A stretch of DNA of 64,000 nt from Escallonia rubra (lineage: Eukaryota; Streptophyta; Magnoliopsida; Escalloniales; Escalloniaceae), in NCBI GenBank assembly GCA_033065855.1, contig JAVXUO010000748.1:228618-292617 (forward strand), read 5' to 3'. Each line of letters opens with the position of its first letter. The first letter of the stretch is position 1. Position numbers and translations under genes: made by a program. Of this stretch, positions 43,543 to 64,000 are shown one piece after another. Under the pieces are notes generated by a model. It did no database searches, was not told where the DNA came from, and saw only the letters and a program-made list of their open reading frames with translations.

Positions 43543-43830
43543 GGGAGCTGATCCGTTGAGAGCGTAGGCAAAATAGGAGAAGTTGCAAGCGCAATCTGAC
43601 CGTCCATCCCGAAAGATGGACGGCCCAGATCGCGCCTTTTTCGAAAGCTGTCAGTCGTCCGCCATACAGTATGGCGGACGGGTTTTTTTACCTTATTGCC
43701 CATCCGCGCCTGTCCGCTGCACTGTATGGCGGAGGACATTAAAGTCCTGATGGGAGAGAGCAAAAAGACGTCCGCGATACTGTGTAGCGGACGTCTCCCA
43801 GTCTCCTAGGCTGGGACCTGCCTGACACGA
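43543..43830 (+). repeat. MULE 1 left TIR
   Basis: The inverse of the sequence ending at 51555. It contains three palindromes of the GTCCGCCATACAGTATGGCG type (43657-43679 is perfect) and an inverted GACCGTCCATCCCGAAAGAT/GGACGG stem. Confidence 0.85.
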
Positions 43831-44563
43831 GACAGCAAAAAAGGTATCCGCTATAAAGTGTATCGGACCTCGCCTAGGCTGACAGCTGTCAGGTCCTGTC
43901 AGGACCTAACTTTCAGGGACTTTATTTCTGCACGTGTCAGAGTGTCGGGAATAATTTATGCTATACAGTATCGCGGACAGGATTTTCCCGTATACCCCAA
44001 AGTTCCTGATTCTCAGCTCTTTCCGCAAAATTTTCTTCTCCTTCGGATTCACTTGCTTCCATTTTCGGCTCCCCACAAACTTCGAGTAAAACTTGCTTCA
44101 ATCTTCTTCACTCAAGCAAGGTAAGTTTCTAATCTCAAATATTTTCAGGGTGGATTGACTGATAAAGTATATATATTTTTTTTGGGCAAAAAAATATAGA
44201 TTTTTGATGATGTTCTAGAAATTAATTTGTTAACTTTTAAGAAGTTTATTGTAGTCAATTTTGATTTTTTTGAGGGGCGCTAACTTCGGCACATCTATCC
44301 TATTGCCTTTTGAATTTTTTGAGATACGTTTGTTGTATTTTGGCATGATGAATTTGTCTAACGCTCTTAGTAATTTTAATTTGTTATGTTCAATAAATCT
44401 ATAATTAGCAAAATGGGAGACTTTTAAGATTATGTATATGGTATATTTGTCATCTTAAATTTGTCTATTCGTCAAGATAATTTGAAGGTAATATTTTCAG
44501 TTGAAAATGTCATTTGATTGTTAAGCGTAGTCTATATTTCTACATATAGGGAGCTGTTTCACA

Positions 44564-46860: not shown

Positions 46861-47004
46861 TTTTTTGTATAAGTTTGAAATTTGTAATAATTTTCGGAGG
46901 GATAATTTTTCGACCGACTACTGGAATTTTTAAAAAATGGACCTATGAGAAGCCATCGAATCAAATCTAAAGTCTTTATTTAATTATTTTTTTTTGTAAG
47001 CCCC

Positions 47005-47200
47005 GTCCGCTATACAATGTAGCGGACGTCATCACAGGCAAACTCTTGGTCTTCTTTTATGTCCGCTATACAATATAGCGGACGTCATCGCAGTAAAACT
47101 TTTAGTCTTCTTTTATGTCCGCTATACAATATAGCGGACGTCATCGAAGAAAAACTTTTGGTATTCTTTTATGTCCGCTATAGAATGTAGCGGATAACTC
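47005..47200. repeat. array of 23-bp palindromes, MULE 1
   Basis: GTCCGCTATACAATGTAGCG-GAC at 47005-47027, GTCCGCTATACAATATAGCG-GAC at 47061-47083 and 47117-47139, and a weaker copy near 47,174, spaced about 56 bp in a unit with TCTTCTTTTAT. It lies just after the transposase stop. Confidence 0.9.
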
Positions 47201-47372
47201 TATCCTATTATATATATTGATCATATCGGGCAATCAGCTGTTATCAGTCCGCTGAGGGCACTCTCTCTGTCTCGAACATGTAGACCAGGCCGCTACTCCA
47301 TCTCCGGCGACCCACATCTCCGGTGACCCATAACTCCGGCGATAAACCGTCCTCCCCTCAACGCTGACCTCG

Positions 47373-47506
47373 ATGGCTTCTAGATCGGAGACCACCTACG
47401 ATTTTATTGGCAACTTGCACCTGGCAGGCAAACACTTATTCAAAGTCATGATGCCGGGGTTTGAGAATGAACTTGTAGGCCATCCCTCTTTCTATGTATT
47501 TTCGTG
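47373..47506 (+). pseudogene. B3 gene first exon remnant, copy 1
   Basis: The ATG and the phrases ETTYDFIGNLHLAGKH and GFENEL match the intact gene at 55607 almost base for base. At 47,506 (TTTTCGTG), inside the expected intron, it jumps to sequence found at about 58,155 in copy 2, so exon 2 is deleted. Confidence 0.85.
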
Positions 47507-47549
47507 TTGGGAATTTATGTTTCTAACTACATCTGTCAAACTATAATGG

Positions 47550-47985
47550 GGTAACTAGCATGCCTAAGGTGCAATGAGCAAAAAAAAAGTGACATAAAAA
47601 ATTACAACATTTTTCGCAAGCTATGAATTTGGCGCTAAAGTGTGCGCGAATAGGCCCTTCATAGGAAAACCAAAAAAATAATTTGTCTTGTTTTTCGCCG
47701 AAATTTATAGAAATGGGCTATATAGCGTGCCTAAGGTGCAATGAGCAAAAAAAAAGTGACCAAAAAAATTACAACATTTTTCGCAAGCTATGAATTTGGC
47801 GCTAAAGTGTGCGCGAATAGGCCTTTCATAGGAAAACCAAAAAAATAATTTGTCTCATTTTTCGCCGAATAGAAATGGGCTATATAGCGTGCCTAAGGTG
47901 CAATGAGCAAAAAAAAAAAACTGACCAAAACAATTACAACATTTTTCGCAAGCTATGAATTTGGCGCTAAAGTGTGCGCGAATAG
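47550..47985. repeat. tandem repeat, unit about 168 bp, MULE 1
   Basis: Two and a half units of GCGTGCCTAAGGTGCAATGA, TTACAACATTTTTCGCAAGC, GGCGCTAAAGTGTGCGCGAA and TTTTTCGCCG. The same block is at 58,198-58,590 in copy 2. Confidence 0.85.
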
Positions 47986-47992
47986 TTTTTTT

Positions 47993-48206
47993 GCCAAGCA
48001 GAAGGAAGACTCCCCAACACTTAGTTTTTTTTTCGGCCCTATCTACGTCCGCTATACTATATAGCGGACAACCAAGCAGAAGTAAGACTCCCCAACACTT
48101 AGTTTTTTTTTCGGCCCTATCTACGTCCGCTATACTATATAGCGGATAGCCAAGCAGAAGTAAGACTCCCCAACACTTAGTTTTTTTTCGGCCCTATCTA
48201 CGTCCG
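47993..48206. repeat. tandem repeat, unit about 79 bp, each with one palindrome, MULE 1
   Basis: About three units of CCAAGCAGAAGTAAGACTCC, ACACTTAGTTTTTTTT, CGGCCCTATCTAC and then GTCCGCTATACTATATAGCG-GA. The last unit breaks off at the deletion junction. Confidence 0.85.
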
Positions 48207-50644
48207 CGCAGGGAATTTGGTTAGATCACAAAGTTGTCTAACCAAATTCCCTGCGCCAGCGTGGACAGTTCTCTCCACGAGACACTGTAATCCAAGCCCT
48301 GCGGGTTATCCACGTCATACGACGCTCTGTCTGGGGGGGGGGGGGGCCGGTAAAATAACGGTGATGGATTAGGTCATGTTTATGCGGCTTCAGGGGCCTG
48401 GCTGGATGCCCGTTCGGATATTGCCCTCGGGGGTCGACCGGTTGCTCTTGCCCTCCGCCCGGGGGCAAGAGCAACGGAAGAAATTGGCCTCCAACCAACG
48501 GATTGGCCGGCTGATAATCCCCTTGGGGGGCCCCAGCCGGCTGATAATCGCCTTCGGGGGCCCCGGCCGGCTGATATTGGTCGTCGGCCATTTCTTCCCC
48601 CGGCTGATATTGCCCTTCGGGGCCGCCAAGTGGTCCCGCCCATGGGACAATGGGCAGTGCCTCGTTGAAATCGTAAGGCCATTCTTGCGTGACTTGACTC
48701 TGAGAGAGGGGTTGGGGTTCCGGGAACAAATCGAAGGTCGGGCCGCTGTAATCGGCCCACGAAGCTTGAGCATGTCCCATCCCCGGTACAGAGGGACCAC
48801 CAACTCCCTGGCTCACCCCTGAAGCTTGCCCGGAGGGATCAACGTTATACGGGCTGGTGCCCGTATAACCCATTCCCGGGCTGTCGACCGAAAACCGTCC
48901 CGATGCTTGCCGCACAAAATTCCCGCAGCCTATAGCCAGTGCAACAGCCTGTTAGCGAAGACCCTCACCCATTGCGCTCATCAGATCCTTCCGCTCACTC
49001 AACTTCTGGAAGAATGCAAGCGAGGCATTAACCTACATCCAAAGAGATAACAAATAAGTAACTTTAATCAGACATTTATATTCAAGACAAGTTGGGCAAC
49101 TTACGAGATTGTATGCCATACGCTCGTCGATCTGACCCCTAGGCGCATACCTCGCCCCGCGTTCAAAGTTCACTGGGGCTACTCTCCTCCGCGTGATGCG
49201 GGAGTAACACTCATCGTACTCCGCGATGCTGATAACGGGGTCCGGCTCTGAGACGATGGCCGCTAGTGTGTCCTGCCAAGAAGTCCAAAGCTCTTCTTCG
49301 GCCGCACACAATTCTTGCGCATTGGCCTTGCCAAACCGCCTGACATCCGGTGGGTCCTTGTTAACCCTCATATCTGGGGCACCGGCTGGCAAACCCTGCT
49401 CCAACTCAAAATGGCGCATTGCTCGGTCTGGCAGCTGCCACTCTGCAACCTCGAAGTGGATGAGGGGTGTGCGCTGCAACCCGGAGAGCGTGAAGACGAA
49501 CGACTCTTCTACCCGTCGCGCCAAACGTATGTACGGTGCCCAACGCAATTGGCCCGGAGATAGGCGGTCGAACTCCCCTCGATAGAACGTGATGTTGTGA
49601 TGGGGATCGACTCTCCTGCGGTAGTGGCTATTCTTCCGACTGTACTCCCAACCACGCAACCGAGGCCACACTCTATCGGTTCCATCCCCACGCGTCGGTG
49701 CCTCGGGAGCAAGGTGTTCATTAGACCACACCTGAGAACATGGGCAAATTATATTTATATCGTCGATTCAACAAAAGCAAAAACAAAAAAAAACAATAAC
49801 GAAGACATGATTTATATGATATACCTGCAATAGCGAGAGACATGCACATATGGATTTGGAGTTGGGCCTCGTTGCCTTGAGCAATGCTCGGTACATATAC
49901 GAAAGAACCGCTGCACCCCATGCATAATCTCCAACCTCCGCCAGGTTACCCAACAACGATAAATATCTCACGCTGACCGTGTTCTTCGTCGTCGTTGGGA
50001 ATAATATTGCCCCCACCACCCACCAGAGGAAGGCTTGTGTGTACAACAGAAGGTCACGGCCCGTATAGTTTTCCGGCAAAACCCCGTAGGTATCTACCAA
50101 CCACTTCAACTTGATACATCCATTGGTAAATTGATCCTGGGGTATCGAAGTTAAGAAGTCCCTAGCGGTTCTCTTATTCGTTGCTTCTGACGGAGGAGCA
50201 ATTACCGGCCGCCCTGTCACCGGCAACCCTAAGATGAACACTACATCTTCTAGGGTAATTTTCATCTCTCCGAGCGGGAAGTGAAACGTATTCGTTTCAC
50301 TTCTCCACCTCTCAACAAGGGTACCTATCAAGGTCCGGTCAAGCTGTTGAAAGATCTGCCCATGCGTGAAAATCCCAAACCCAATTCCACGCAGTATCCT
50401 CTTCTGGGCGGTGTTCAGTTTCCACGATACTATATTGCGAGATACTTCTACGGTGTTAAGAAGTTCTCTTTCCTATGAATTAATAAATACAATTTAAGCA
50501 TAACAAACGGTATATACAACGTTCGTAAGCGATAGAAAGTCGATAAATAATGTATCTTACTCCACCATCCCATATGAGCGTACTGATATGGTTGGCTTGG
50601 TCGTATAACACGGATGGGTCTTCAGGTCTTGGATTAAATTCCAT
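48206..50644 (-). pseudogene. plant mobile domain gene (PMD-Ulp1), copy 1, Ulp1 part deleted
   Basis: Exons with GT..AG borders: 50644-50561, 50472-49825, 49731-49105, and exon 4 from 49032 to the break near 48,240. Exons 1-3 are open and code a plant mobile domain (MAIN-like; FPLGEMKITLEDVVFILGLP, DYAWGAAVLSYMYRAL, VWPRLRGWEY, RYAPRGQIDERMAYNL). Exon 4 has a TAA at 48952-48954, then a low-complexity linker with repeated YQPAGAP units, then a frameshift at an over-long G run (48,335-48,350). The C48 peptidase found in copy 2 is missing, replaced by a hairpin junction. Here the PMD exons are better preserved than in copy 2. Confidence 0.88.
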
Positions 50645-51264
50645 TTTTTGCAACTGAAATTATGGAAAAACCTTCTCAGTTTGGATTTTACGTTTTGGAT
50701 TTTGATAATCACTCGCAAAAATACGACGCTAGCACATGCATAATACATATAACGCAAGCACATGAATGATGCAAACAATGTTAGCATATGTACTCATATG
50801 TATAAATATATATATACATATACGGAATCGGATTTTACAAACGCTTGCACAAGAACAAAAACATATATATATATAAAACGCAATATTCATCACAACTGAA
50901 GATTACAAACAAAAAAAAGTGTAGATTTTCTGAACTTACGTGATCGATTTAGGGTATTAAAGGTGTTCTTAAGACGGAATTACGCCGATATGCTTGCCAA
51001 CGCTGCTGGGAAATTTTGTGAGTAGAAAGAGTGGAGAAGAGTGTCGTAGTTACTGTCGTTTGAAAGTATATTGAACGTCGGCAAGATAGTACCGCGGATG
51101 GCTATTACGTCCGCGAAACAATATCGCGGATGGCTATAACGTTCGCTAAACTGTATAGCGGACGCTCCTATTTTGCCCACGCTCTCAATGGATCAGCTCC
51201 TATTTTGCCCACGCTCTCACTGTTGACGTGACAGATAAGGACAAGATAACCGTCATTGCCGAAA

Positions 51265-51554
51265 AAATTGACGGGACAGGCCCTGACAGGTGTCAGCCTA
51301 GGGACGTCCGCTACATAGTATCGCGGACGTCTTTTTGCTGTCTCCCATCAGGACTTTAATGTCCTCCGCCATACAGTGTAGCGGACAGGCGCGAAGGGGC
51401 AATAAGGTAAAAAAACCCGCCCGCCATACTGTATGGCGGACGACTGACAGCTTTCGAAAAAGGCGCGATCTGGGCCTTCCGTCTTTCGGGATGGACGGTC
51501 AGATCGCGCTTGCAACTTCTCCTATTTTGCCCACGCTCTCAACGGATCAGCTCC

Positions 51555-51555
<1 letters not shown>
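51265..51555 (-). repeat. MULE 1 right TIR
   Basis: The inverted partner of 43543-43830, with the same palindromes (near 51,305, 51,365 and 51,420). It ends GGATCAGCTCCC against a (CA)n run. Confidence 0.85.
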
Positions 51556-51614
<59 letters not shown>

Positions 51615-51637
51615 CACATACATATACATAAATATAC

Positions 51638-51669
<32 letters not shown>

Positions 51670-51763
51670 ATATATATATACATATATATATACATATATA
51701 TATATACACACAATGTATATATATACATATACATATACATATATATATATATATATACACACA

Positions 51764-51828
<65 letters not shown>
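51556..51828. repeat. (CA)n/(TA)n microsatellite between the two MULEs
   Basis: About 270 bp of CA, TA and TG runs is all that separates the two elements. Confidence 0.95.
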
Positions 51829-51829
<1 letters not shown>

Positions 51830-52100
51830 TGAGAGCGTGGGGAAAATAGTAGAAGTTGCAAACGCGATCTGATCGTCCATCCCGAATGATGGACGGTCCA
51901 GATCGCGCCTTTTTCAAAAGCTGTCAGTCGTCCGCCATACTGTATGGCGGACGGGTTTTTTTACCTTTTTGCCCTCCGTCACTGTCCGCTACACTGTATG
52001 GCGGAGGACATTAAAGTCCTGATGGGAGACAGCCAAAAGACGTCTGCCATACTGTGTAGCGGACGTCCCTAGGCTGACACCTCTCAGGGCCAGACAGGAG
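51829..52100 (+). repeat. MULE 2 left TIR
   Basis: Its inverted partner ends at 63304. Both TIRs of copy 2 share CACTGTCCGCTACACTGTAT and GCCAAAAGACGTC, unlike copy 1. Palindromes near 51,930, 51,985 and 52,041. Confidence 0.85.
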
Positions 52101-52823
52101 ACAGCAAAAAAGGAATACGCTATACAGTGTAGCGGACCTGACAGCTGTCAGGTCCTATCAGGACCTGACTTTCAGGGACTTTATTTCTGCACGTGTCAGA
52201 GTGTCGGGAATAATTTTCGCTATACAGTATCGCGGACAGGCGCTTCCCATATACCCCAAAGTTCCTGATTCTCAGTTCTTTCCGCAAAATTTTCTTCTCC
52301 TTCGGATTCACTTGCTTCCATTTTCGGCTCCCCTCAAGCTTCGAGTAAAACTTGCTTCAATCTTCTTCACTCAAGCAAGGTAAGTTTCTGATCTCAAATA
52401 TTTTCTGGGTGGATTGACTGATAAAGTATATATATATATTTTTGGGCAAAAAAATATAGATTTTTGATGATGTTCTAGAAATTAATTTGTTAACTTTAAA
52501 GAAGTTTATTGTAGTCAATTTTGATTTTTTTGAGGGGCGCTAACTTCGGCACATCTATCCTATTGCCTTTTGAATTTTTTGAGATACGTTTGTTGTATTT
52601 TGGCATGATGAATTTGTCTAACGCTCTTAGTAATTTTAATTTGTTATGTTCAATAAATCTATAATTAGCAAAATGGGAGACTTTTGAGATTATGTATATG
52701 GTATATTTGTCATCTTAAATTTGTCTATTCGTCAAGATAATTTGAAGGTAATATTTTCAGTTGAAAATGTCATTTGATTGTTAAGCGTAGTCTATATTTC
52801 TACATATAGGGAGCTGTTTCACA

Positions 52824-55087
52824 ATGTCTGATTTCGTGTCGAGCTCCAACACCCCCGTAGATGCTAGTGATCCGTATCTAGGACGAACCTTTCAAACATT
52901 GGAGGAAGCTGGAGAATGTTTCCGAGCGTATTCATTGAGGGTTGGATTTGGCATTAGAATAAAGACTTCAAGAACGAGCAACATAACGAGAAAGATATGC
53001 TCTCGCTTATACGAGTGCCATAGGGGCAGAAACCCAGTGCAAAATGAGACACGCGTAGGCAACGAGGACAGTGATGACGAAATAGGATATTCGCGCAGAA
53101 GACGGGACTTCTTTGCGCGAACGAATTGCCAGGTCAAGATGTTCGTAAGCTATAAAGCCAAGCAAGATCATTGGCTTATTACCAGCCTAGAACTGGCACA
53201 CAATCACCCGTTAGTAACCCCTTCTAAGGTGAGTCAGATACATCAACACAAGAAGATGGGAAAGGTCGCGAGGAGCCTCATTCACATAATGAGCGATGCG
53301 CGGCTAGGACCTACCGACATGATTAATGTTCTTGCTGAACAGGCCGGGGGAATTCAAAATTTAAACTTTATCACGACAGACGTTCGCAACGCGGTCCGAA
53401 CCCATAGACGAGCCGCGTATGACCTCAATGATGCTCAAGCCACAATGAGCTTATTAAAGCGGATGCAGATGGAGGACCCGCAGTTTACCTTCGATTATAA
53501 ACTTGACGACGAGCATCGTGTTAGCATAATTTTTTGGGTCGACGATCGTTTGAGGCTTGCTTATAAGCATTTTGGGGATGGTACTCGATGCCGTTTGCCC
53601 CTTTCACGGGGGTCAATCATCATTATCATTCCATCCTGTTCGGGTTTGCCTTGTTAAGGGACGAGAGCGAGAGTTCTTTTGAATGGTTGTTTAGTGTGTG
53701 GCTGGAAGCCGTGAACTTCAACGCACCCAACGCTATCATCACCGATCAAGATTTGGCAATGAAGAAGGCTATTGCCACCGTCTTCCCAGATACTCGACAC
53801 AACTTGTGCACTTGGCACATAAGCAACAAATACCCCGAACGTTTGCATCACGTGTACGCAAAGTTTCCAGACTTTAAACAGGATTTTGACACGTGCGTTA
53901 GCAAATCGTTAACGATTGAGGAATTTGAGGAGAGGTGGGAAAAGCTTGTTCAGGATTACTCATTGCAAGACAACGGGTGGCTCCAGCACTTGTACGAGCT
54001 CAAAAAGCAATGGATTGGCGTTTACACGAGGAGGCATTTTTCTGCGGGCATGAAAACGACGGGGAGGAGTGAATCTATGAATGCCACGTTCAATAGTTAC
54101 GTGGGTACAACTACCAATTTGAAGAGTTTCATCACATCCGCACAGAAAGCGGTTGCGTCGTTGTTCGTGAAAGAAAGGGCTGCAGACTTTGCAACCACGT
54201 ACAAACAGAGGAGAAGGTTGCTTGAGACCCCGCTGGAGCTGAATGGTGCCAAAGTCTATACGAAGGAGATCTTCTTGCTATACCAAGTAGAGCTGCAGAA
54301 ATCGGGACGGTACTGTATAAACAAGGTGGCAGAGAATTCTACGCGTGAGTACAAGGTTTATTCGCTCGTGAATGACCTCGTTCCTGAGAAGCTGCGCAGA
54401 ATGTATACAGTGAGCCACGACACATTGACGGACTCGGTGACATGTGTTTGCAAGAAGTTTGAGTTCCATGGCATCATGTGTAGACACGTTCTGCGCTTTT
54501 TCACCCAGAAGAATATAAGGACAATCCCCGATAAATAAGTCTTGCCACGGTGGATGAAAGGTGCTAACAGGTTGCACGGTACCATTGCCTTTTCGGAGCA
54601 CCCGTATACTGACTTTGAAGAATCGGAGACGTTGCGGTATAATCATCTGGTGACGAGTTTCACCCGTTTGTCCGTAAAGGCTGCTGCTTCAATGGTCGGT
54701 TATAAACATCTCCTCGAGGTAGCTCAGCAGCAAGAGCCCATCGTCGACCAGTTGGAAGCAGCTTCAGTCACCAATGCGATTGACACCGAGCCTACGACGG
54801 GGGTATCAGAAGATGACGAGCCGGGGGAGGAAGACGACAATGATATCCGTTTGTTGGATCCAATTATATCGCAAACGAAAGGCCGCAAGAGATCTACGCG
54901 GATGAAAAGCTCTATTGAAACGACAACTCAACCTAAAAAGCTGCGAAGGTGTGCATTGTGCAACAAAATGACCGACCACGACAAGCAGAACCATTACAAG
55001 GCACTGGGGATAAGTTCAGGGGGTTTGCAAGACGGAGAAGAAGGTGACGCCGAAGATGAGGACGAACAAGCTGCAGTGGACCTTTAA
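52824..55087 (+). pseudogene. FAR1-type MULE transposase, copy 2
   Basis: Same leader intron (52380-52809) and domain order as copy 1, with the N-terminal half open where copy 1 is broken. A 34-bp deletion at 53580/53581 removes the segment with the first catalytic aspartate (FDTTY) and shifts the frame. A TAA at 54536-54538 replaces a tyrosine codon (TAC in copy 1) just after the SWIM finger. The C-terminal acidic region and CALCNKMTDHDKQNHY are open. The protein would be about 760 residues if whole, normal for FAR1-type transposases. Most differences from copy 1 are single substitutions. Confidence 0.92.
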
Positions 55088-55234
55088 TTTTTTGTACAAC
55101 GTTATGACATTTGTAATAATTTTCGGAGGGATAATTTTTTGACCGAATACTGGAATTTTTAAAAAATGGACCTATGAGAGGCCATCAAATCAAATCTAAA
55201 GTCTTTATTTAATTAAATTTTTTTTTGTAAGCCC

Positions 55235-55435
55235 CGTCCGCTATACAATGTAGTAGACGTCATCGCAGACAAACTTTTGGTCTTCTTTTATGTCTGCTAT
55301 ACAATATAGCAGACGTCATGAGCAGTAAAAGTTTTGGTCTTCTTTTATGTCCGCTATACAATATAATGGACGTCATCGAAGAAAAAACTTTTGGTATTCT
55401 TTTATGTCCGCTATACAATGTAGCGGATAACTCTA
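55235..55435. repeat. array of 23-bp palindromes, MULE 2
   Basis: Four copies near 55,237, 55,291, 55,348 and 55,405, the counterpart of 47005-47200. Several arms here have lost pairing through single changes (for example TAGTAGAC for TAGCGGAC). Confidence 0.85.
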
Positions 55436-55606
55436 TCCTATTATATATATTAATCATATCGGGCAATCAGCTGTTATCAGTCCTCTCTGAGGGCACTTCT
55501 CTGTCTCGAACATCTAGCCCAGGCCGCTACTCCATCTCCGGCGACCCACATCTCCGGTGACCCACAACTCCGACGATAAACCGTCCTCCCCTCAACGCCG
55601 ACCTCG

Positions 55607-56075
55607 ATGGCTTCTGGATCGGAGACCACCTACGATTTTATTGGCAACTTGCACCTGGCAGGCAAACACTTTTTCAACGTCATGATGTCGGGGTTTGAGA
55701 ATGAACTTGTAGGCGATCCCTCTTTCTCTGTATTTTCGTGTGTTAAAGGTTTGATCTTTTGGTTAAAAACTAACCTATTTTTTGTATTGTGTTTGTTAGG
55801 ACATACCGGAAGCCTTTACCAATCAATTTACAACAATTCATGACAGTGCAAGATTATATAGCCGCAAGGGGGCATGGCAGGTTGAAATCAAGCTGAAGCC
55901 CGGCCGACCCCAAAAAAAGCAATTCACAGAGGGTTGGAACGTCTTCGTGCGCCAGCATGGCCTCGAACTCGGGGACTTTGTAGTGTTTGAACACCTTGGG
56001 TGGTGGGATTTTCAAGTTGTAATCTTTGATCGGAGCACTTGTGAAAAAAATTCTTTCCCCCAATGTGAACCCTAA
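55607..56075 (+). CDS. B3 DNA-binding domain protein, two exons, carried by MULE 2
   Basis: Exon 1 is 55607-55708 and exon 2 is 55800-56075; the 91-bp intron is GT..AG. The joined product is 125 residues and almost entirely one B3 domain: LAGKHFFNVMMSGFENEL, then DIPEAFTNQF, WQVEIKLK, FTEGWNVFVRQHGLELGDFV and VFEHLGWWDFQVVIFD. These are the standard B3 strands, including the GW..F....GL..GD.. core. B3 domains bind short DNA motifs in the major groove, and REM-type single-domain proteins are the nearest kind. No stop or frameshift is seen, so it may be intact. It lies between transposase and repeats, in the same direction as the transposase. The role in the element is inference. Confidence 0.85.
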
Positions 56076-56149
56076 TTTATTATTAATAAAATAATTTATG
56101 TTCTTGTTCATTGTGATTCGTAATTTTTCCTCGCTTAATTGTGCTTAAT

Positions 56150-56410
56150 TGTGTCGTTTGAGATTCCCTCGATATATTGAGATCGTTGATTGTGAATCGT
56201 ACGTTGATTGTGTCGTTTGAGATTCCCTCGGTAAATTGAGATCGTTGATTGTGAATCATACGTTCTTTATTGTTTACCGATATTGAGATTGTTGATTCTG
56301 ACGCCAAAACAAGTCTTCGGGCGCCAATTTATTAAAACAGCATTATGCTACAATACGACTAAAACAAGCCTTTGGGCGCCAATTTATTAAAACTGCAGTA
56401 CGCTACAACG
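56150..56410. repeat. two short tandem duplications
   Basis: TTGTGTCGTTTGAGATTCCC with its neighbours is repeated with a ~62-bp period (56,150-56,270), and GGGCGCCAATTTATTAAAAC with a ~57-bp period (56,310-56,410). Confidence 0.7.
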
Positions 56411-56433
56411 TCTAGCTCTACTACATAGCGGAC

Positions 56434-56776
56434 ATAAGGCCTCCGCTTAGGCTGGGGTTCGGGAAGGTCAGAACTAAGTGTCTGGTTCGTGCCAACCATT
56501 TTCTGGTCCAAGTTGCAGACAATGATCTGCTGCACCACTATGACGTAAGCTTGGTCATGTATTCTGCGGGGTTGTCCGCTATACTATATAGCGGACATAT
56601 ATAGGAGAAAAAAAACTAAATGTTGGAGACTTTGCCTCTGCGGGGCTGTCCGCTATACTATATAGCGGACCTTGGAGAGAAAAATGGTTGTATGCAGCTC
56701 AAATCAAAAAATGGTTGGCACGGACCAGACACTTAGTTCCGACCTTCCCGAACCCCGGCCTAAGCGGAGGCCTTAT
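56434..56776. mobile_element. inverted-repeat (MITE-like) element holding two palindromes
   Basis: Arms of about 69 bp (56434-56502 and 56708-56776) start ATAAGGCCTCCGCTTAGGC and stay paired with few mismatches. Between them lie two perfect GTCCGCTATACTATATAGCG-GAC palindromes (56574-56596 and 56648-56670). No target duplication is obvious. Confidence 0.75.
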
Positions 56777-56797
56777 AGCTTTAGAATAACTCGATCT

Positions 56798-57229
56798 TCA
56801 GTCATCTTCATCTGAAACTTGAGCATCGGAAACATTTCCTTCTTCGAAGCTCATGTTCCAGTATACTTGTGCTTCATTGTTGTTGCCATCTTCATGTGCA
56901 TCACGTGCCATACGACGTAAGTTATGCCTACTTTGACGAACTCTCATTCTATTATTTTCCTCACGTATTCGATGCAGTGCCCTTTCAAGCTCCATGTGCG
57001 TAATTCGAGACATGTTGATTGCCTTTTGTCGAGGTATGGGTATATTCATGCTTCGTGAATCAGCTACTAAGACCTCATGTTCATTCATCCGATAAGATCA
57101 TTCTGCACGTAATGTATTAACATAGCTTGATGAGTAACGCAAACTTGGACGCAAAGAATAGTGAAATTCATCTTCGCCCGCCCAGTAACGACCCATTGCT
57201 TCAAAAATATCTCGTGGAGTATATGACAT
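56798..57229 (-). pseudogene. small coiled-coil protein gene A, with one in-frame TGA
   Basis: From the ATG at 57229: MSYTPRDIFEAMGRYWAGED, to codon 43, then TGA (57098-57100), then SYRMNEHEVLVADSRS and an Arg/Glu-rich likely coiled coil (MELERALHRIREENNRMRVR) and an acidic end (SDEDD). 144 codons in all. If the TGA is a true stop, an ATG at 57088 could give a 96-residue protein. It pairs with the gene at 57619. I do not recognise the family. A TATA-like TATATATA lies at about 57,299-57,306, 70 bp upstream. Confidence 0.5.
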
Positions 57230-57618
57230 TTCCAGAGTTGTTATGAAATTAGGAGTATATCACTTTATGCCCTTTGCCCTTCGTGCAATGCATGTACTTA
57301 TATATACTTTGAAACGGGACCACTTTATGAAAGAGCTACAGGTTCAACTTTATGAGATGTGACAAGCCTTTGGCAATAGACTAGAGACTTGTCTTGTCAC
57401 CAAAGAGAATTGTCTTGTCACCAAAGACTTGTCAACTTTATGACACGGGCATGCTATTGTCTCCAACTATTGTCATGTTCAATGTCCAGAGACTTGTCTT
57501 GTCACCAGAGATGGACAGACTATTGTGTAGCTATATTCCCAATATATTGTGTATGTGTGTGTGGGATTATTTATATATGTTAGCCATGCTTATCGCTTTA
57601 GAACCAAAACAAAGTTAA
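57230..57618. promoter_or_regulatory. putative bidirectional promoter with direct repeats
   Basis: A 389-bp gap separates the divergent small genes. It holds a TATA-like motif facing each way (about 57,299-57,306 and TTATTTATATATG at 57567-57579). Three direct copies of TTGTCTTGTCACCA lie near 57389, 57410 and 57494. Confidence 0.45.
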
Positions 57619-58053
57619 ATGGCAGGAGTTCCTGGGAGTTCTAGTCTACGGGGACGTGAGACTGTGTGGTTGTTGTGTGAAAGGAACGACGACTACAAAG
57701 ATGTGAAGTACACGGATCCCAGAGAGTATTATTGCGGTTTACGGAGAGAATGAGCATATCGAGTTAAGGAATCAGAAGCGCTACACCAAGATCTCACCAT
57801 GCTGAGAGCACCTGTGCCGCAACGTCGTTCACTTACTATGTCGCGGCGTAATGTTAAGCAGTGTAAGAAAGCTATGCGCCAAGTTCGTATGGAGAATAAC
57901 CGGATGTTGCTGAGTAGAAAACGATTTTATATGCTTCAACTTGCGGAAGAAATGGCCGAGGTTAGTGGGAGGCAGCTCAAATCAAACGAGAGAAACAATA
58001 TTTTAACCAATGATCAGTACTTATCTGATGAGTATATGTCAAATGAAGAGTGA
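57619..58053 (+). pseudogene. small coiled-coil protein gene B, paralogue of A, with in-frame TGA
   Basis: From the ATG at 57619: MAGVPGSSSLRGRETVWLLC, to codon 44, TGA (57751-57753), then AYRVKESEALHQDL, PVPQRRSLTMSRRN, VRMENNRMLLSRKRF and an acidic end (MSNEE). 145 codons. It aligns with gene A through LR.E-stop-.YR, P..R...MSR and ENNRM. The TGA sits at codon 45 here and 44 in A. An ATG at 57799 would give an 84-residue product after the stop. Family unknown; nuclear or DNA-associated use is only a guess from charge. Confidence 0.5.
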
Positions 58054-58197
58054 TATATATATCTCTTCCTACTGCATGTTAGGATTTCATTCCAACCGGC
58101 ACTTATCCACATGTCATTCTAATTAGCGAATCCCGTCTTTTGAAGCATGTAAAATATTGGGAATATATGTTTCTAACTACATCCATCATACTATAAT

Positions 58198-58590
58198 GTG
58201 GTAACTAGCATGCCTAAGGTGCAATGAGAAAAAAAAATTGACATAAAAAATTACAACATTTTTCGCAAGCTATGAAGTTGGCGCTAAAGTGTGCGCGAAT
58301 AGGCCTTCATAGGAAAACCAAAAAAATAATTTATCTCGTTTTTCGCCGAAATGCATAGAAATGGGCTATATAGCGTGCCTAAGGTGCAATGAGCAAAAAA
58401 AAATGACATAAAAAATTACAACATTTTCGCAAGCTATGAATTTGGCGCTAAAGTGTGCGCGAATAGGCCCTTCATAGGAAAACCAAAAAAATAATTTGTC
58501 TCGTTTTTCGCCGCAATTCATAGAAATGGTCTATATAGCGTGCCTAAGGTGCAATGAGCAAAAAAAAAGTGACCAAATCAATTACATATC
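58198..58590. repeat. tandem repeat, unit about 168 bp, MULE 2
   Basis: About 2.4 units, the same as 47550-47985. Confidence 0.85.
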
Positions 58591-58593
58591 TAC

Positions 58594-58995
58594 GTCCGCT
58601 ATACTATATAGCGGACAGCCAAGCAGAAGGAAGACTCCCCAACACTTAGTTTTTTTTTCCGGCCCTATCTACGTCCGCTATACTATATCGCAGACAGCCA
58701 AGCAGAAGGAAGACTCCCCAATACTTAGTTTTTTTTTCGGCCCCATCTACGTCCGCTATACTATATCGCGGACAGCCAAGCAGAAGGAAGACTCCCCAAC
58801 ACTTAGTTTTTTTTTCGGCCCTATCTACGTCCGCTATACTATATCGCGGACAGCCAAGCAGAAGGAAGACTCCCCAACACTTAGGTTTTTTTCCGGCCCT
58901 ATCTAAGTCCGCAATACTATATCACAGACAGCCAAGCAGAAGGAAGACTCCCCAACACTTAGTTTTTTTTCTGCCCTATCTATGTTTAGCGGACA
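58594..58995. repeat. tandem repeat, unit about 79 bp, each with one palindrome, MULE 2
   Basis: Five units (CCAAGCAGAAGGAAGACTCC, AACACTTAGTTTTTTTTTC, CGGCCCTATCTAC, then the palindrome). Copy 1 has about three, so the array length varies. The first palindrome (58594-58616) is perfect. Later ones end TATCGCGGAC and are mispaired at one arm base. Confidence 0.88.
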
Positions 58996-59242
58996 GTCCA
59001 ACAGAAACAGTCTCACTTGGTTTTTACACTTTGTTTCCCCCTGGTGAAAGCAAATCACACAGAACAAATAAAACACTCAGCTCAACAACACAACGATATC
59101 AGTGAATCAAATCAATCGCATTCAACAACGATCACATCTCAGTCAACACAGATGAAATCGTCAATCGCATTCAAACGATAAGATTCAAGAAGTTTAAGGA
59201 CAATTAAAAATGTGAATATAATGTTATTATACGCAAACATTG

Positions 59243-62200
59243 TCAATTACACGGATTTATAATATATCTAATAGGTCTAGGCCGGCCATTGATAATTTGC
59301 CAAGCCATCCTATACCTAAAGCAGTCTATGTATTCTTGGGTCCAGACGGTCTTCTTGAGGCTCTCCGACCGACAGATGTAATCCATGTACATGCAGAGGA
59401 AGACGCCGCAGTCCGAGGAATTAAGTTGCTTGGGCCTAGTCCTCTTCAATCGGAGAACAAGCTGCGTATCGCCCGGTGCCCTCCCTCGGGTCTCTTGAGA
59501 ACGCTCTCTATTGACCATGGCAGCAAATAGATTCTGCGAGAAACAGGATAAGCATTAAACATTAAACATAGCAAACATAATAAGATTAATCAGTTCTACA
59601 ATATGCAAGTTACAATAAGAAGTAAACAGGATCTTACCATGGCATCCAACATCCCTAAGCCTCGGTACATTTCAATCACACCAATTGCGTCCGTATCATC
59701 GTAGAGACTGTCGAGGACTGATACCGTATTCGTTACCGGTTCATAGCAAATCAAGAACCAGTGGGCATTCACTATAGCTGGGATTAGAAACACATCCGCC
59801 ACACTTGCGCTCTCTGGACTCGGCCGAGCAAGATATGCGAGTAGGTTAGCGAACGGTCTCCACTTGACCTCGACCTTCGCCTTTCTCGCCTGCTTCCTCG
59901 CCTTGTCCCAGTCGTTATACTCTTGTACTAGCATATTATGAAAGTAAGCATCGAGGATAAAAATGCGCGGACCGTAGTTAGGCTGCTCCCGACTCCTTTG
60001 CAGCAGAATTTGCACGTAGTGCGAGATGACAAAGTTGTCTAACCACATCCCCGGCGCCAGCGTGGACAGTTCTCTCCATGAGACACTGTAATCCAAGCCC
60101 TGTGGGTTATCCACGTCATACGACGCTTCGTCTGGGGGGGGCCCGCTAAAATAACGGTGATGGATTAGGTCATGTTTATACGGCTTTAGGGGCCTGGCTG
60201 GATGCCCTTGCGGATATTGCCCTCGGGGGTCGACCGGTTGCTCTTGCCCGCTGCCGGGGGGCAAGAGCAACGGAAGAAATTGGCCTCCAACCAACGGATC
60301 GGCCGGCTGATAATCCCTTTGGGGAGCCCCGGCCGGCTGATAATCGCCTTCGAGGGCCCCGGCCGGCTGATATTGCTCGCCGGCCATTTCTTCCGCCGAC
60401 TGATATTGCCCTTCGGGGCCGCCAAGTGGTCCCGCCCACGGGACAATGGGCAGTGCCTCGTTGAAACCGTAAGGCCATTCTTACGTGACTTGACTCTGAG
60501 AGAGGGGTTGGGGTTCCGGGAACAAATCGAAGGTCGGGCCGCTATAATCGGCCCACGACGCTTGAGCATGTCCCATCCCCGGTACAGAGGGACCACCAAC
60601 TCCCTGGCTCACCCCTGAAGCTTGCCCGGAGGGATCAACGTTATACGGGCTGGCGCCCGTATAACCCTTTCCCGGGCTATCGACCGAAGACTGTCCCGAT
60701 GCTTGCCGCACAAAATTCCCGCAACCTATAGCCAGTGCAGCAGCCTATTGGCGAAGATCCTCGCCCACTGCGCTCATCAGATCCTTCCACTCACTCAACT
60801 TCTGGAAGAATGCAAGCGAGGCATTAACCTACATCCAAAGAGATAACAAATAAGTAACTTTAATCAGACATTTATATTCAAGACAAGTTGGGCAACTTAC
60901 GAGATTGTATGCCATACGCTCGTCGATCTGACCCCTAGGCGCATACCTCGCCCCGCGTTCAAAGTTCACTGGGGCTACTCTCCTCCGCGTGATGCGGGAG
61001 TACCACTCATCGTACTCCCCGATGCTGATAACAAGGTCTGGCTCCGAGACGATGGCCGCCAGTGTGTCCTGCCTAGAAGTCCAGAGCTCTAGTTCGGCTG
61101 CGCACAATTCTTGCGCATTGGCCTTGCCAAACCGCCCGACATCCGGTGGGTCCCTGTTAACCGTCATATCTGGGGCACCGGCGGGCAAACCCTGCTCCAA
61201 CTCAAAATGGCGCATTGCTCAGTCTGACAGCTGCCACTCTGCGACCTCGAAGTGGATGAGGGGTGTGCGCTGCAACCCGAAGAGCGTGAAGACGAATGAC
61301 TCTTCTACTCATCGCGCCAAACGTATGTACGGTGCCCAACGCAATTGGCCCGGAGATAGGCGGTCGAACTCCCCTCGATAGAACGTGATGTTGTGATGGG
61401 GATCGACTCTCCTGCGGTAGTGGCTATTCTTCCGGCTGTACTCCCAAGCACGCAACCGAGGCCACACTCTATCGGTTCCATCCCTACGCGTCGGTGAATC
61501 GGGAGCAAGGTGTTCATAAGACCACACCTGAGAACATGGACAAATTATATTTATATCGTCGATTCAAAAAAATCAAAAACAAAAAAAAACAATAACGAAG
61601 ACAGGATTTATATGATATACCTGCAATAGCGAGAGACATGCACATATGGTTTTGGAGTCGGGCCTCGTTGCCTTGTGCAATGCTCGGTACAGATACGAAA
61701 GAACCGTTGCACCCCATGCATAATCTCCAACATCAGCCAGGTTACCCAACAACGGTAAATATTTCACGCTGGCCGTGTTCTTCGACGTCGTTGGGAATAA
61801 AATTGCCCCCATCACCCACCAGAGGAAGGCTTTTGTGTAAAGCACAAGCTCATGGCCCGTATAGTTTTCCGGCAAAACCCCGTACGTATCTACCAACCAC
61901 TTCAACTTTATACCACCACTGCTAAATTGATCCTGGGGTATCGAAGTGAGGAAGTCCCTAGCAGTTCTCGTTTTCGTTGCTTCTGACGGAGGAGCAATTA
62001 TCGGCAGCCCCGTCACCGGCAACCCTAAGATGAACCCTACTTCTTCTAGGGTAATTGTCAGCTCTTCGAGCGGGAAGTGAAACGTATTCGTTTCACTTCT
62101 CCACCTCTCAACAAGGGCACCTATCAAGGCCCGGTCAAGCTGTTGAAATATCTGCTCATGCGTGAAAATCCCAAACCCAATTCCACGCAGTATCGTCTTC

Positions 62201-62441
62201 TGGGCGGTGTTCAGTTTTCCACGATACTATATCGCGAGATACTTCTACGGTGTTCACAAGTTCTCTTTCCTACGAATTAATAAATACAATTTAAGCATAA
62301 CAAACGGTATATACAACGTTCGTAAGCGATAGAAAGTCGATAAATAATGTATCTTACACCACCATCCCATATGAGCGTACTGATATGGTTGGCTTGGTCG
62401 TATAACACGGATGGGTCTTCAGGTCCAGGGTTAAATTCTAT
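59243..62441 (-). pseudogene. PMD-Ulp1 fusion gene, copy 2 (all five exons, mutated)
   Basis: Exons: 62441-62358, 62269-61621, 61527-60901, 60828-59638 and 59533-59243, with GT..AG introns. Exons 1-3 encode the plant mobile domain; exon 4 a Pro/Gln/Gly-rich linker with repeated YQPAG units and the first half of a C48 (Ulp1-like) peptidase; exon 5 the rest. Peptidase residues are visible: histidine in NAHWFLICYE, aspartate in SVLDSLYDD, and glutamine and cysteine in PKQLNSSDCGVFLCMY. Lesions: start ATG to ATA, an extra A near 62,216, and stops at 61,309, 61,219, 60,745 and 60,481. The stops are mostly C-to-T changes. Ulp1 peptidases cut SUMO-like tags; PMD occurs in host MAIN proteins and in transposons. 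Confidence 0.88.
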
Positions 62442-62869
62442 TTTTTGCAACTGAAATTATGGAAAACATTCTCAGTTTTGATTTTACGTTTTGGATTTTG
62501 ATAATTGCTCGCAAAAATACGACGCATGCACATGCATAATACATATAACGCAAGCACATGAATGATACATACAATGTTAGCATATGTACTCATATGTATA
62601 AATATATATACATATACGGAATCGGATTTTGCAAACGCTTGCACAAGAACAAAAACATACATATATAAAACGCAATATTCATCATAACTGAATATTACAG
62701 ACAAAAAAAAGTGTAGATTTTGTGAACTTAGGTGATCGATTTAAGGTATTAAAGGTGTTCGTAAGACGGAATTGCGCCGATATGCTTGCCAACGCCGTCT
62801 AGAACAAATACCCTAAATCGATGTGAGTAGAAAGAGTGGAGAAGAGTGTCGTAGTTACTGTCGTTTGAA

Positions 62870-62970
62870 AGTATATTGAACGTCCGCAATACAGTACCGC
62901 GGATGGCTATTACGTCCGCGATACTATATCGCGGATGGCTATAACGTCCGCGATACTGTGTAGCGGACAC
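62870..62970. repeat. palindromes upstream of PMD-Ulp1, MULE 2
   Basis: Three copies: GTCCGCAATACAGTACCGCG-GA (near 62,883), GTCCGCGATACTATATCGCG-GA (near 62,915, fully paired with G:C at the variable arm position) and GTCCGCGATACTGTGTAGCG-GAC (near 62,947). They lie about 430-500 bp upstream of the gene's former start codon. Confidence 0.85.
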
Positions 62971-63019
62971 TGTTGACGTGACAGATAAGGACAAGATAAC
63001 CGTCATTGCCGAAAAAACT

Positions 63020-63304
63020 GTTGTGTCAGGCCCTGACAGGTGTCAGCCTAGGGACGTCCGCTACACAGTATGGCGGACGTCTTTTGGCTGTCTCCCATCA
63101 GGACTTTAATGTCTTCCGCCATACAGTGTAGCGGACAGTGGCGGAGGGCAAAAAGGTAAAAAAACCCGTCCGCCATACAGTATGGCGGACGACTGACAGC
63201 TTTTGAAAAGGGCGCGATCTGGACCGTCCATCATTCGGGATGGACGGTCAGATCGCGTTTGTAACTTCTCCTATTTTGCCCACGCTCTCAACAGATCAGC
63301 TCCC
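63020..63304 (-). repeat. MULE 2 right TIR
   Basis: The inverted partner of 51829-52100. It ends CAGATCAGCTCCC beside the microsatellite and contains palindromes near 63,057, 63,117 and 63,168. Confidence 0.85.
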
Positions 63305-63308
63305 ATAC

Positions 63309-63368
<60 letters not shown>

Positions 63369-63540: not shown

Positions 63541-64000
63541 GCGTTGAAGGGAAAGAGGAAGAAAAGTGAGGTGGGTCCCATTCATTTTAGTCCGAATTGA
63601 TCTGGACTAATTTTATACCCCCCCCCCCCCCCCGGGTATTATTTTATCTCACTCAAGGGGGATAAAACAAGTCCAAAGGACACCTTATCCGGGGACTAAA
63701 TGCGTGTCCAAACGCCGGATAAGATTATTTTTATCATATCCGGGGTCTTATCCTGCGCGCCAAACACAGCCTAAAAGAACGTCGGGAGTTAATCGGGACA
63801 TTTTCTGGGCTTATAGGGTCATTTGACAAACACGCTGGTTGGTGTCACTTCTTGTAGTGTCTACAACACTAACCAAATCTGAAACTTTGAAGTTCAAGTA
63901 CTCCGAATAAAAGTGACGGAATAGAGAAAGCAATTTTGTAGAGAGAGACCACATTTGTCACGAGCGCCATTACAAGGCAGTTTATAATATTCTTAGAATT
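63541..64000. other. probable MITE fragment, no gene
   Basis: A C15 run (63,618-63,632) is followed by GGGTATTATTTTATCTC, GGATAAGATTATTTTTATC and CGCGCCAAACACAGCC. This recalls inverted ends of small non-autonomous DNA elements, whose ends often read CCAAACA.GCC. The opposite end is not identified. Confidence 0.3.

Follow-up and report, generated by a model that had tools for sequence, protein, structure and literature searches.

The window analyzed here, a 64,000-bp stretch of Escallonia rubra DNA, contains at positions 51828–63304 (plus strand) a decayed Mutator-like transposon with long terminal inverted repeats (TIRs) and five genes, which we named copy B. That this element is real is confirmed by its TIRs, its terminus and two collinear full-length copies, C1484 and C1643. 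Its genes encode a FAR1-MULE-SWIM transposase, a B3 protein, two divergently oriented small paralogues (SL and SR) and a five-exon fusion of a plant mobile domain (PMD) with a Ulp1-type C48 peptidase. The left TIR (51828–52096, plus strand) pairs with 63024–63293 at 96.3% identity over 270 bp, and the arms reach 330 bp at 93% once the flanking simple repeat is counted in. Pairing of the TIRs and comparison with other termini show that the right TIR (63024–63304, minus strand) ends intact, whereas the left TIR lacks its outermost 12 bp (GGGAGCTGATCC), whose place is taken by (GT)n. A target site duplication of 8–11 bp cannot be distinguished from the surrounding repeat at most flanks of the family, which consist of (TA)n or (CA)n. 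The original prediction, made from the sequence alone, that long TIRs enclose five genes was borne out, and profile HMMs for FAR1, MULE, SWIM, B3, PMD and C48, the check it had proposed, all matched in the gene pieces. It was right about gene content but missed that four of the five genes in copy B are dead, only B3 being open.

The transposase gene (52824–55087, plus strand) has lost its frame near 53580, at a point where it lacks the DTTY segment that the MULE domain has in other copies, and is interrupted by a TAA at 54536. Its pieces nevertheless match FAR1 (E = 2e-14), MULE (8.5e-24) and SWIM (3.9e-5), and the presence of all three in one transposase is a mark of the Jittery (FAR1) type. 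Only one of seven copies, C1484, has an open transposase, extending over 765 aa; its MULE domain (PF10551, E = 2.7e-32) and the long TIRs identify the element as a TIR-MULE. Comparison of C1484 with the diverged locus L006 gave a transposase dN/dS of 0.31.

Downstream follows the B3 gene, with exon 1 at 55607–55708 (start codon, 34 codons, then a GT donor) and exon 2, including the stop, at 55800–56075, both on the plus strand. The 125-aa protein is open in copy B and in 20 of 25 copies. Exon 2 matches the Pfam B3 domain (E = 8.9e-10; 37.8 bits against a curated cut-off of 30.1), and the nearest solved chain is a weak match to VRN1 (E = 0.03). SL (56798–57229, minus strand; 143 aa when open) and SR (57619–58053, plus strand; 144 aa when open) are open in 18 and 14 of 25 copies, respectively. 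Read from C1484, the two are 32% identical over 109 aa, and neither has a Pfam domain. Each carries an in-frame TGA in copy B, at the same residue; genuine recoding was considered and rejected, as nearly all other copies have W there (SR of copy C659 has C). A profile of SR and SL matched 217 proteins. The predicted SR structure consists of helices only (mean pLDDT 73, pTM 0.41); a Foldseek search returned no match below E = 4.5 and a profile search against PDB chains none below 0.29, matches so weak that no function follows for SR.

Relative to the majority reading, dN/dS of the copies was 0.75 for B3, 0.51 for SR and 0.58 for SL, in a block alignment that excludes C2550, interrupted early by another insertion. 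For SR and SL together (C2548 excluded), variants shared between copies were richer in synonymous changes than singletons (15 synonymous to 18 nonsynonymous against 31:112, p = 0.008). The same comparison gave no sign of selection for B3 (2:11 against 19:34), and p = 0.14 for the three small genes combined. All three are open simultaneously in 11 of 25 copies, a figure that a trans-acting helper would allow and hitch-hiking would also predict.

The PMD-Ulp1 gene lies on the minus strand. Exon 1 (62358–62441) starts with ATG in the majority reading and with ATA in copy B, exon 2 (61621–62269) encodes the PMD and has a 1-nt insertion in copy B, and exon 3 (60901–61527) encodes the remainder of this domain. 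Exon 4 (59638–60828) contains a linker with tandem peptide repeats, including a 30-bp tandem repeat at 60300–60372, followed by the C48 His and Asp; exon 5 (59243–59533) provides the Cys and the stop. Stops in exons 3 and 4 add to the lesions of copy B. Its exon pieces match PMD with E = 3.6e-45 and C48 with 4e-6 and 3.1e-7, as compared to 7e-71 and 2e-15 for the spliced majority reading from nine copies. The final residues of this 941-codon reading are artefactual, caused by a base lost in exon 5, which measures 96 codons in B, C1484, C1643 and C2854. An open frame is seen only in the majority reading: none of the ten copies read is open throughout, and exon 4 has a frameshift or stop in every one. 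The catalytic His, Asp and Cys of the C48 family are retained in nine of ten copies, the exception being sister element A, in which the region is deleted. With sister A excluded from the majority and variant classes, shared and singleton variants do not differ (13:47 against 84:198, p = 0.27). DUF1985 reached E = 0.11 on one exon and was not listed for the spliced reading at E up to 0.1.

Sister element A (43543–51555, plus strand) lies directly left of copy B, has the same TIRs and lacks, by deletion, B3 exon 2 through SR as well as the C48-encoding part of exons 4 and 5. Both belong to a TIR-MULE family that is present in many copies and encodes a FAR1-MULE-SWIM transposase. Among the best 40 scored places, selected by the B3-SL-SR block itself, this block lies within a single alignment at no fewer than 28, the window included (88–100% identity), and at 39 of the best 40 at least 1584 of the 1601 bases of the PMD end are aligned. 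The equivalent of 51827–63319 is collinear in C1484 at about 96% identity and in C1643 at 92–94%. In 13 pairs, which include the window and one contig twice, the PMD follows the block on the same strand after 3.0–5.9 kb. It had been stated at the outset that copies with these TIRs but without B3 and the small genes would speak against these genes being part of the element; seven of eight readable long copies contain the block, one of them with deletions, and the eighth is sister A, which lost it by deletion. Because order and spacing are the same in copies elsewhere, the five genes form one mobile unit. The same copies exclude chance, a mis-joined assembly (the gene order recurs on many contigs) and a nested insertion of B3, SL and SR into copy B alone. 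TA or CA microsatellites abut 28 of 35 distinct termini and, in an overlapping sample, 26 of 30 loci, as opposed to 1.9% of 5000 random 80-mers.

A second family-wide feature is a 21-bp palindrome present at 23 sites in copy B, 22 of them outside exons (binomial p = 2.5e-7, a value that assumes independent sites, which tandem sites are not). The window contains 70 strand-matches, all within elements A and B, where 0.01 would be expected. In copy B they cluster at 51931–52236 (three sites in the left TIR, two subterminal), at 55236–55427 between the transposase and B3 genes (four sites in a 57-bp tandem array), at 58587–58985 between SR and PMD-Ulp1, whose 3′ ends face each other (five sites, 78-bp tandem unit) and at 62883–63189 (six sites, right subterminal region and TIR). 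Two more (56575 and 56649) are enclosed by an 89-bp inverted repeat (89% identity; 56434–56776) 3′ of SL. The divergent SL-SR promoter region (57230–57618) contains none. Site number in the SR-Ulp1 array varies between copies: 5 in B, 20 in C1484, 12 in C1643, 7 in C2854, 10 in C2548 and 2 in A. The palindrome is absent from six 3.3-kb loci that represent other FAR1-MULE families, and the two loci that yielded five, L001 and L006, turned out to belong to the present family as diverged members; the specificity is that seen against these six loci and one 9.9-kb stretch of the related family described below. Among 209 sites, all from related copies, 127 show complementary bases at the two free paired positions of the pattern, where about 100 are expected from column frequencies; this excess suggests that the site is symmetric and may be read by a dimer. 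Decay at CpG as a mark of methylation was also considered for the palindromes and dropped (transitions at 39 of 836 CpG against 27 of 836 other arm C/G bases).

These palindromes could be binding sites of the transposase, with the extra proteins serving transposition (synapsis, excision, microsatellite integration) and not escape from silencing. In or near the TIRs lie 11 of the 23 sites of copy B, the transposase has a FAR1 DNA-binding domain, and the termini favor microsatellites; binding sites at ends plus interior are known from other plant transposons. Yet site number grows mostly deep inside the element, reaching up to 20 in the SR-Ulp1 array, a place at which a cut-and-paste enzyme has no need of binding sites, and AutoMuTAnT inhabits TA microsatellites without extra genes (PMC4486113, as far as its accessible text goes). 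We regard this explanation as a serious possibility that falls short of being probable. The arrays might also be targets or triggers of host silencing by hairpin RNA or RNA-directed DNA methylation (RdDM) and not sites for element proteins: the 89-bp inverted repeat could fold, and accessible parts of PMC10398659 and PMC5735166 discuss tandem repeats of VANDALs as siRNA sources and RdDM targets. But harmful arrays should vanish, while those of C1484 and C1643 are larger, and the excess complementarity suggests a dimer-read site. We consider such a host-silencing role highly improbable.

A related family in this genome, at C1232, has a convergent PMD-Ulp1 gene as well, 42% identical over the PMD half and 28% and 52% over C-terminal pieces. 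Its linker contains a 60-bp tandem repeat, and the family has a six-copy 311-bp array of its own. No match to B3, SL or SR and no palindrome was found in the 9.9 kb downstream of its transposase. As judged from this one family without the three genes, the comparison shows a putative core of transposase and convergent PMD-Ulp1, between which B3, SL and SR are placed in the five-gene family. This arrangement would fit captured passengers that hitch-hike with a two-gene core, the palindromes being a by-product of TIR-derived tandem duplication, as would the non-significant purifying selection on B3 and the many broken copies. Passengers would, however, hardly be expected to be so well conserved: the block is whole at 28 or more places with all three frames open in 11 of 25 copies, shared SR and SL variants are enriched in synonymous changes, SR-type proteins of 41–55% identity recur among the 120 of 217 matches listed, with oak among the named sources, and Escallonia herrerae has an annotated B3 protein with 83 of 91 exon-2 residues identical. 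Hitch-hiking seems rather doubtful to us.

The original prediction could not place the combination with a B3 gene in a described family. The unusual part is the B3-SL-SR module, since Ulp1 beside MULE transposases is already known: in the accessible parts of PMC2528002, Ulp1 coding sequences are found downstream of the transposase gene, on the same or the opposite strand, in MULEs with TIRs as well as in non-TIR ones, including grapevine and melon elements of which some are Jittery-like. That text describes no B3 or small paralogues for them, and the Escallonia Ulp1 differs in its fusion to a full PMD. Our literature search found no MULE with a B3 gene; most subscription journals lay outside it, and it does not prove absence. 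The PMD occurs in proteins of other MULEs and of Gypsy elements and in MAIN/MAIL1. In such a MULE, PMD-C forms part of a fusion with the transposase (PMC5418596, in part), whereas the Escallonia PMD is joined to Ulp1 and encoded by a gene of its own that runs convergently. MuTAnT and SaTar MULEs of Medicago, guayule and rice share insertion into TA microsatellites and mixed element clusters (PMC5907723, accessible portion). AutoMuTAnT has a Jittery-like transposase, too, but is a one-gene element of 4.9 kb with a different terminal sequence (GGGGTTTGCTAGAACA as the published mask, against GGGAGCTGATCC) and no motif arrays described in the available text (PMC4486113).

A parallel to the anti-silencing factor VANC, which acts through motif clusters in Arabidopsis VANDALs, had also been drawn. 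For the arrays it proved closer than foreseen (23 sites, variable size), but it does not extend to support for VANDAL membership: the VANDAL21 motif YAGTATTAY occurs on neither strand of 51828–63304, other VANDAL families having other motifs, and the gene encodes a PMD (E = 7e-71) in place of the DUF1985 of VANC. The 270-bp TIRs are a weak distinction, because VANDALs are called non-TIR in PMC13317346 while VANDAL21 TIRs are mentioned in PMC10398659, both consulted in part. As far as these sources and PMC5735166 were accessible, VANDALs with VANC and those carrying KIU likewise combine several genes, family-specific noncoding motif arrays and a protein with tandem peptide repeats, with Ulp1 in KIU; no B3 is described for them.

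Our preferred explanation, at a probability of about 0.38, is that of a microsatellite-targeting FAR1-type MULE that may have acquired a module of three genes and arrays of binding sites of its own for a VANC-like self-activation. The palindrome would be bound by a dimeric element-encoded protein, most likely B3, perhaps with SR and SL as partners, or possibly by the FAR1 end of the transposase. Binding to the arrays would label noncoding DNA as belonging to the element. PMD-Ulp1 might act as the effector, and promoters and ends would stay accessible or be desilenced in trans across the family's copies, in the manner of VANC on VANDALs; insertion into microsatellites could limit damage to the host. 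Anti-silencing by any element protein is thus a role that we infer. Collinear copies, palindrome specificity and arrays of varying size favor VANC-like self-activation, as do the signs of constraint (transposase dN/dS of 0.31, SR and SL p = 0.008, the SR relatives) and the repeats of the C1232 family. The latter resemble the VANC pattern published in PMC5735166 and PMC10398659, in the parts available: tandem motif repeats in noncoding DNA, not alike from one family to the next, and variable regions of VANC that contain tandem peptide motifs. The explanation is weakened by the lack of an open PMD-Ulp1 in ten copies, the single open transposase in seven, the null selection tests for B3, for the three small genes together and for PMD-Ulp1, and the palindrome-free SL-SR promoter region.

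Sequence-specific anti-silencing by transposons has been described for Arabidopsis VANDALs, as the accessible literature has it. Here another MULE lineage carries VANDAL-like signs, namely its own motif arrays and a PMD/Ulp1 gene with tandem peptide repeats, and in addition a DNA-binding B3 protein and a pair of small proteins. At its boldest, B3, SR and SL would be a second, independently evolved system of self-recognition and anti-silencing in plants, reading the palindrome array outside VANDALs atop an older transposase and PMD-Ulp1 core, with SR/SL as a new widespread helper family. We consider this unlikely and put it forward as speculation; were it to hold, self-activation of transposons would have arisen at least twice, with a B3 protein recruited for it. 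Because the C1232 family has the core and, where read, not the module, the role of the module can be tested by comparing the two families, and a many-copy family with helper genes and palindromes is a good test ground for plant transposon self-activation. New as observations are the termini abutting TA/CA microsatellites and the 21-bp palindrome arrays that vary between copies.

We read the window directly between 51200 and 64000, listed open frames and inverted repeats, compared the window with itself and performed Pfam searches. In the self-comparison, the left TIR (51828-52096) and the right TIR (63024-63293) match at 96.3%. They bound an element of 51828-63304, termed B, which encloses a FAR1/MULE/SWIM transposase gene, a two-exon B3 gene, a divergent pair of small paralogous genes (SL and SR) and, directed inward from the right end, a five-exon gene encoding a plant mobile domain and a C48 peptidase (PMD-Ulp1). 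The original prediction of a TIR-bounded Mutator-like element with five genes was thus borne out by the TIR match and by Pfam hits for FAR1, MULE, SWIM, B3, PMD and C48. Its author had also been unable to place the combination with a B3 gene in a described family; in the literature searched, no MULE with a B3 gene was found. The other components have precedents: passages of one report describe, for grapevine, melon and Arabidopsis, MULEs in which the transposase is followed by Ulp1 in either orientation (PMC2528002), and PMD within MULEs is already known from part of another (PMC5418596).

The 566-Mb assembly, in which the window lies on contig C1138, was searched with three queries: the left TIR, the B3-SL-SR block and the PMD end. 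Seven large copies, 18 block copies and four additional PMD-Ulp1 regions were fetched, and nine copies were studied at length, namely these seven, B and its sister A in the window. The copy on contig C1484 is collinear with B over the full length at about 96%, and the one on C1643 is collinear at 92-94%. Seven of the nine (B, C1484, C1643, C2854, C1822, C291 and C2548) carry B3 and both small genes whole or mostly, with a deletion in C2548 that cuts into SL and SR. Of the remaining two, A (43543-51555) has the same TIRs as B, adjoins it on the left across a common microsatellite tract, and has lost the segment from B3 exon 2 to SR as well as the C48 part of PMD-Ulp1 by internal deletions; C2550 is broken by another insertion ahead of the position of the block. 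This break lies inside the transposase gene, and the insert, which starts at about L041:1412 with CACTACAAGAAA, resembles a CACTA-type element.

Genome-wide, at least 28 places, including the window, match the block over at least 2500 of its 2541 bases in a single alignment (88-100% identity), and at least 13 further places contain it partially or in pieces; since this list was selected by the block itself, with the best 40 of 1813 first-look candidates scored, these numbers are no estimate of frequency. Pair counts, which rest on the best 40 places per list and are therefore lower bounds, gave at least 12 TIRs followed on the same strand by a listed block 1.7-3.6 kb downstream (window 3.3 kb), at least 13 block-PMD pairs on the same strand at 3.0-5.9 kb (window 3.2 kb; contig C659 counted twice) and at least eight TIR-PMD pairs at 8.8-14 kb (window 9.1 kb). 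Had B3 and the small genes been chance captures, other copies with these TIRs should lack them; because the block recurs across copies on the same strand and with such spacing, these genes belong to the element, as had been proposed.

Copy B itself is decayed. Its transposase lacks the MULE DTTY segment, loses its frame around position 53580 and is interrupted by a stop at 54536. SL and SR each contain one TGA where nearly all other copies have W, and in PMD-Ulp1 an ATA replaces the ATG, exon 2 has one additional base, and exons 3 and 4 contain stops. B3 is the only open gene, and GGGAGCTGATCC is missing from the left end. Among the copies read, the transposase is open in one of seven (C1484, 765 aa); in C1643, its start string was not found. 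In a spliced PMD-Ulp1 sequence read by majority from nine copies, A left out, the introns are bordered by GT/AG, and Pfam recognizes PMD (E 7e-71) and C48 (E 2e-15) in 941 codons. The C48 His, Asp and Cys residues are retained in nine of ten copies, the exception being A, where the region is gone; exon 4 is open throughout in none of the ten.

Across 25 copies, open frames were found for B3 in 20, SL in 18, SR in 14 and all three in 11. Measured against the majority sequence, the copies have a dN/dS of 0.75 in B3, 0.51 in SR and 0.58 in SL; between L006, a diverged family member with one stop, and C1484, the transposase gives 0.31. Variants found in at least two copies mostly date from the period of element movement. 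For SR and SL together, the ratio of synonymous to nonsynonymous changes is 15:18 among these shared variants and 31:112 among singletons (p 0.008). Such a synonymous excess is absent from B3 (2:11 shared, 19:34 singletons) and from PMD-Ulp1 (13:47 and 84:198, p 0.27), and pooling the three small genes gives p 0.14; all these p values are only rough, because the copies are related to one another. A profile built from SR, SL and an initial relative matched 217 proteins outside the Escallonia rubra genome. All of the 120 matches listed are nearer to SR than to SL, none has a precomputed Pfam domain, and the named ones comprise one JGI protein and hypothetical proteins from Quercus suber and Q. 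lobata. An annotated B3 protein from Escallonia herrerae has the identical residue at 83 of the 91 positions encoded by exon 2.

The family also carries a palindrome. The 21-bp word TCCGCnATACnnTATnGCGGA occurs 70 times on either strand of the window with up to two mismatches (0.01 expected), and all 70 matches, spanning 43658-63189, fall within A and B. Allowing up to four substitutions yields 23 sites in B, compared with 0.4 in Markov controls, and 39 in a 14.8-kb stretch of C1484 (controls 0.2). In B, all but one of the 23 are non-exonic, the remaining one being a weak match in PMD exon 2. They cluster at both ends, between transposase and B3, 3' of SL and between SR and Ulp1; the SL-SR gap of B has none. 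The number of sites in the SR-Ulp1 array ranges from 2 in A to 20 in C1484, with 5 in B, 7 in C2854, 10 in C2548 and 12 in C1643. The arms of the sites collected follow from the search pattern itself; at the paired positions left free by it, 127 of 209 sites show complementarity, with about 100 expected from column frequencies. Two further loci with the palindrome are diverged members of the window family. Six 3.3-kb loci from other families of FAR1-MULEs, whose transposases are about 36-61% identical depending on the piece, contain none. An 89-bp inverted repeat (56434-56776) encloses two palindromes; in C291, the segment within it is inverted, as if flipped through recombination of the repeat arms.

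A related family, represented by C1232, has a transposase of 50% identity and a convergent PMD-Ulp1 gene downstream (L075:698-3623, minus strand), which is 42% identical over 492 columns in the PMD half; later stretches of 193 and 56 columns are 28% and 52% identical, respectively. Its linker contains a 60-bp tandem repeat, and a six-copy 311-bp tandem array (97%) lies past the 5' end of the gene (L075:3790-5670). The 9.9 kb read contained neither the palindrome nor a match to B3, SL or SR. The transposase and PMD-Ulp1 thus form a core common to both families, and this single comparison suggests that the B3-SL-SR module and the palindrome accompany the window family.

Passages of three reports describe VANC proteins that bind to short motifs located in noncoding tandem repeats of the VANDAL family to which they belong, induce methylation loss and co-diverge with their targets; tandem peptide motifs are frequent in their variable regions, and some VANC genes carry Ulp1 (KIU) (PMC5735166, PMC10398659, PMC13317346). 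Similarly, the window family has its own word in noncoding arrays of varying size and a PMD-Ulp1 whose linker bears repeats and differs between families; a B3 DNA-binding fold comes in addition. The B3 protein would be the natural candidate reader of the palindrome, and self-recognition of the element through the palindrome could relieve silencing. We consider such a role the most likely one, at a probability of just under 0.4. The main rival is that the extra genes and the palindrome serve transposition itself.

The insertion sites show a preference as well. In 26 of 30 TIR loci, more than 30% of the outer 80 bases consist of TA, CA or GT dinucleotide repeats, compared to 1.9% of random 80-mers (n=5000); in this set, four rows show a terminus other than the searched one, and a single flank does not reach 80 bases. 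Over all fetched DNA, in a sample overlapping these loci, 28 of 35 distinct termini are flanked by microsatellites; such tracts are common to several elements, as for A and B. This is the insertion habit reported in parts of the work on MuTAnT and SaTar elements (PMC4486113, PMC5907723). In the left flanks of L014, L021 and L034, an apparent end of another element lies beyond the TA microsatellite, from the same family in L014 and with a similar terminus in the other two, an arrangement similar to the mixed clusters that SaTar elements are reported to form. To the right of B, the window contains a run of 16 C (63618-63633).
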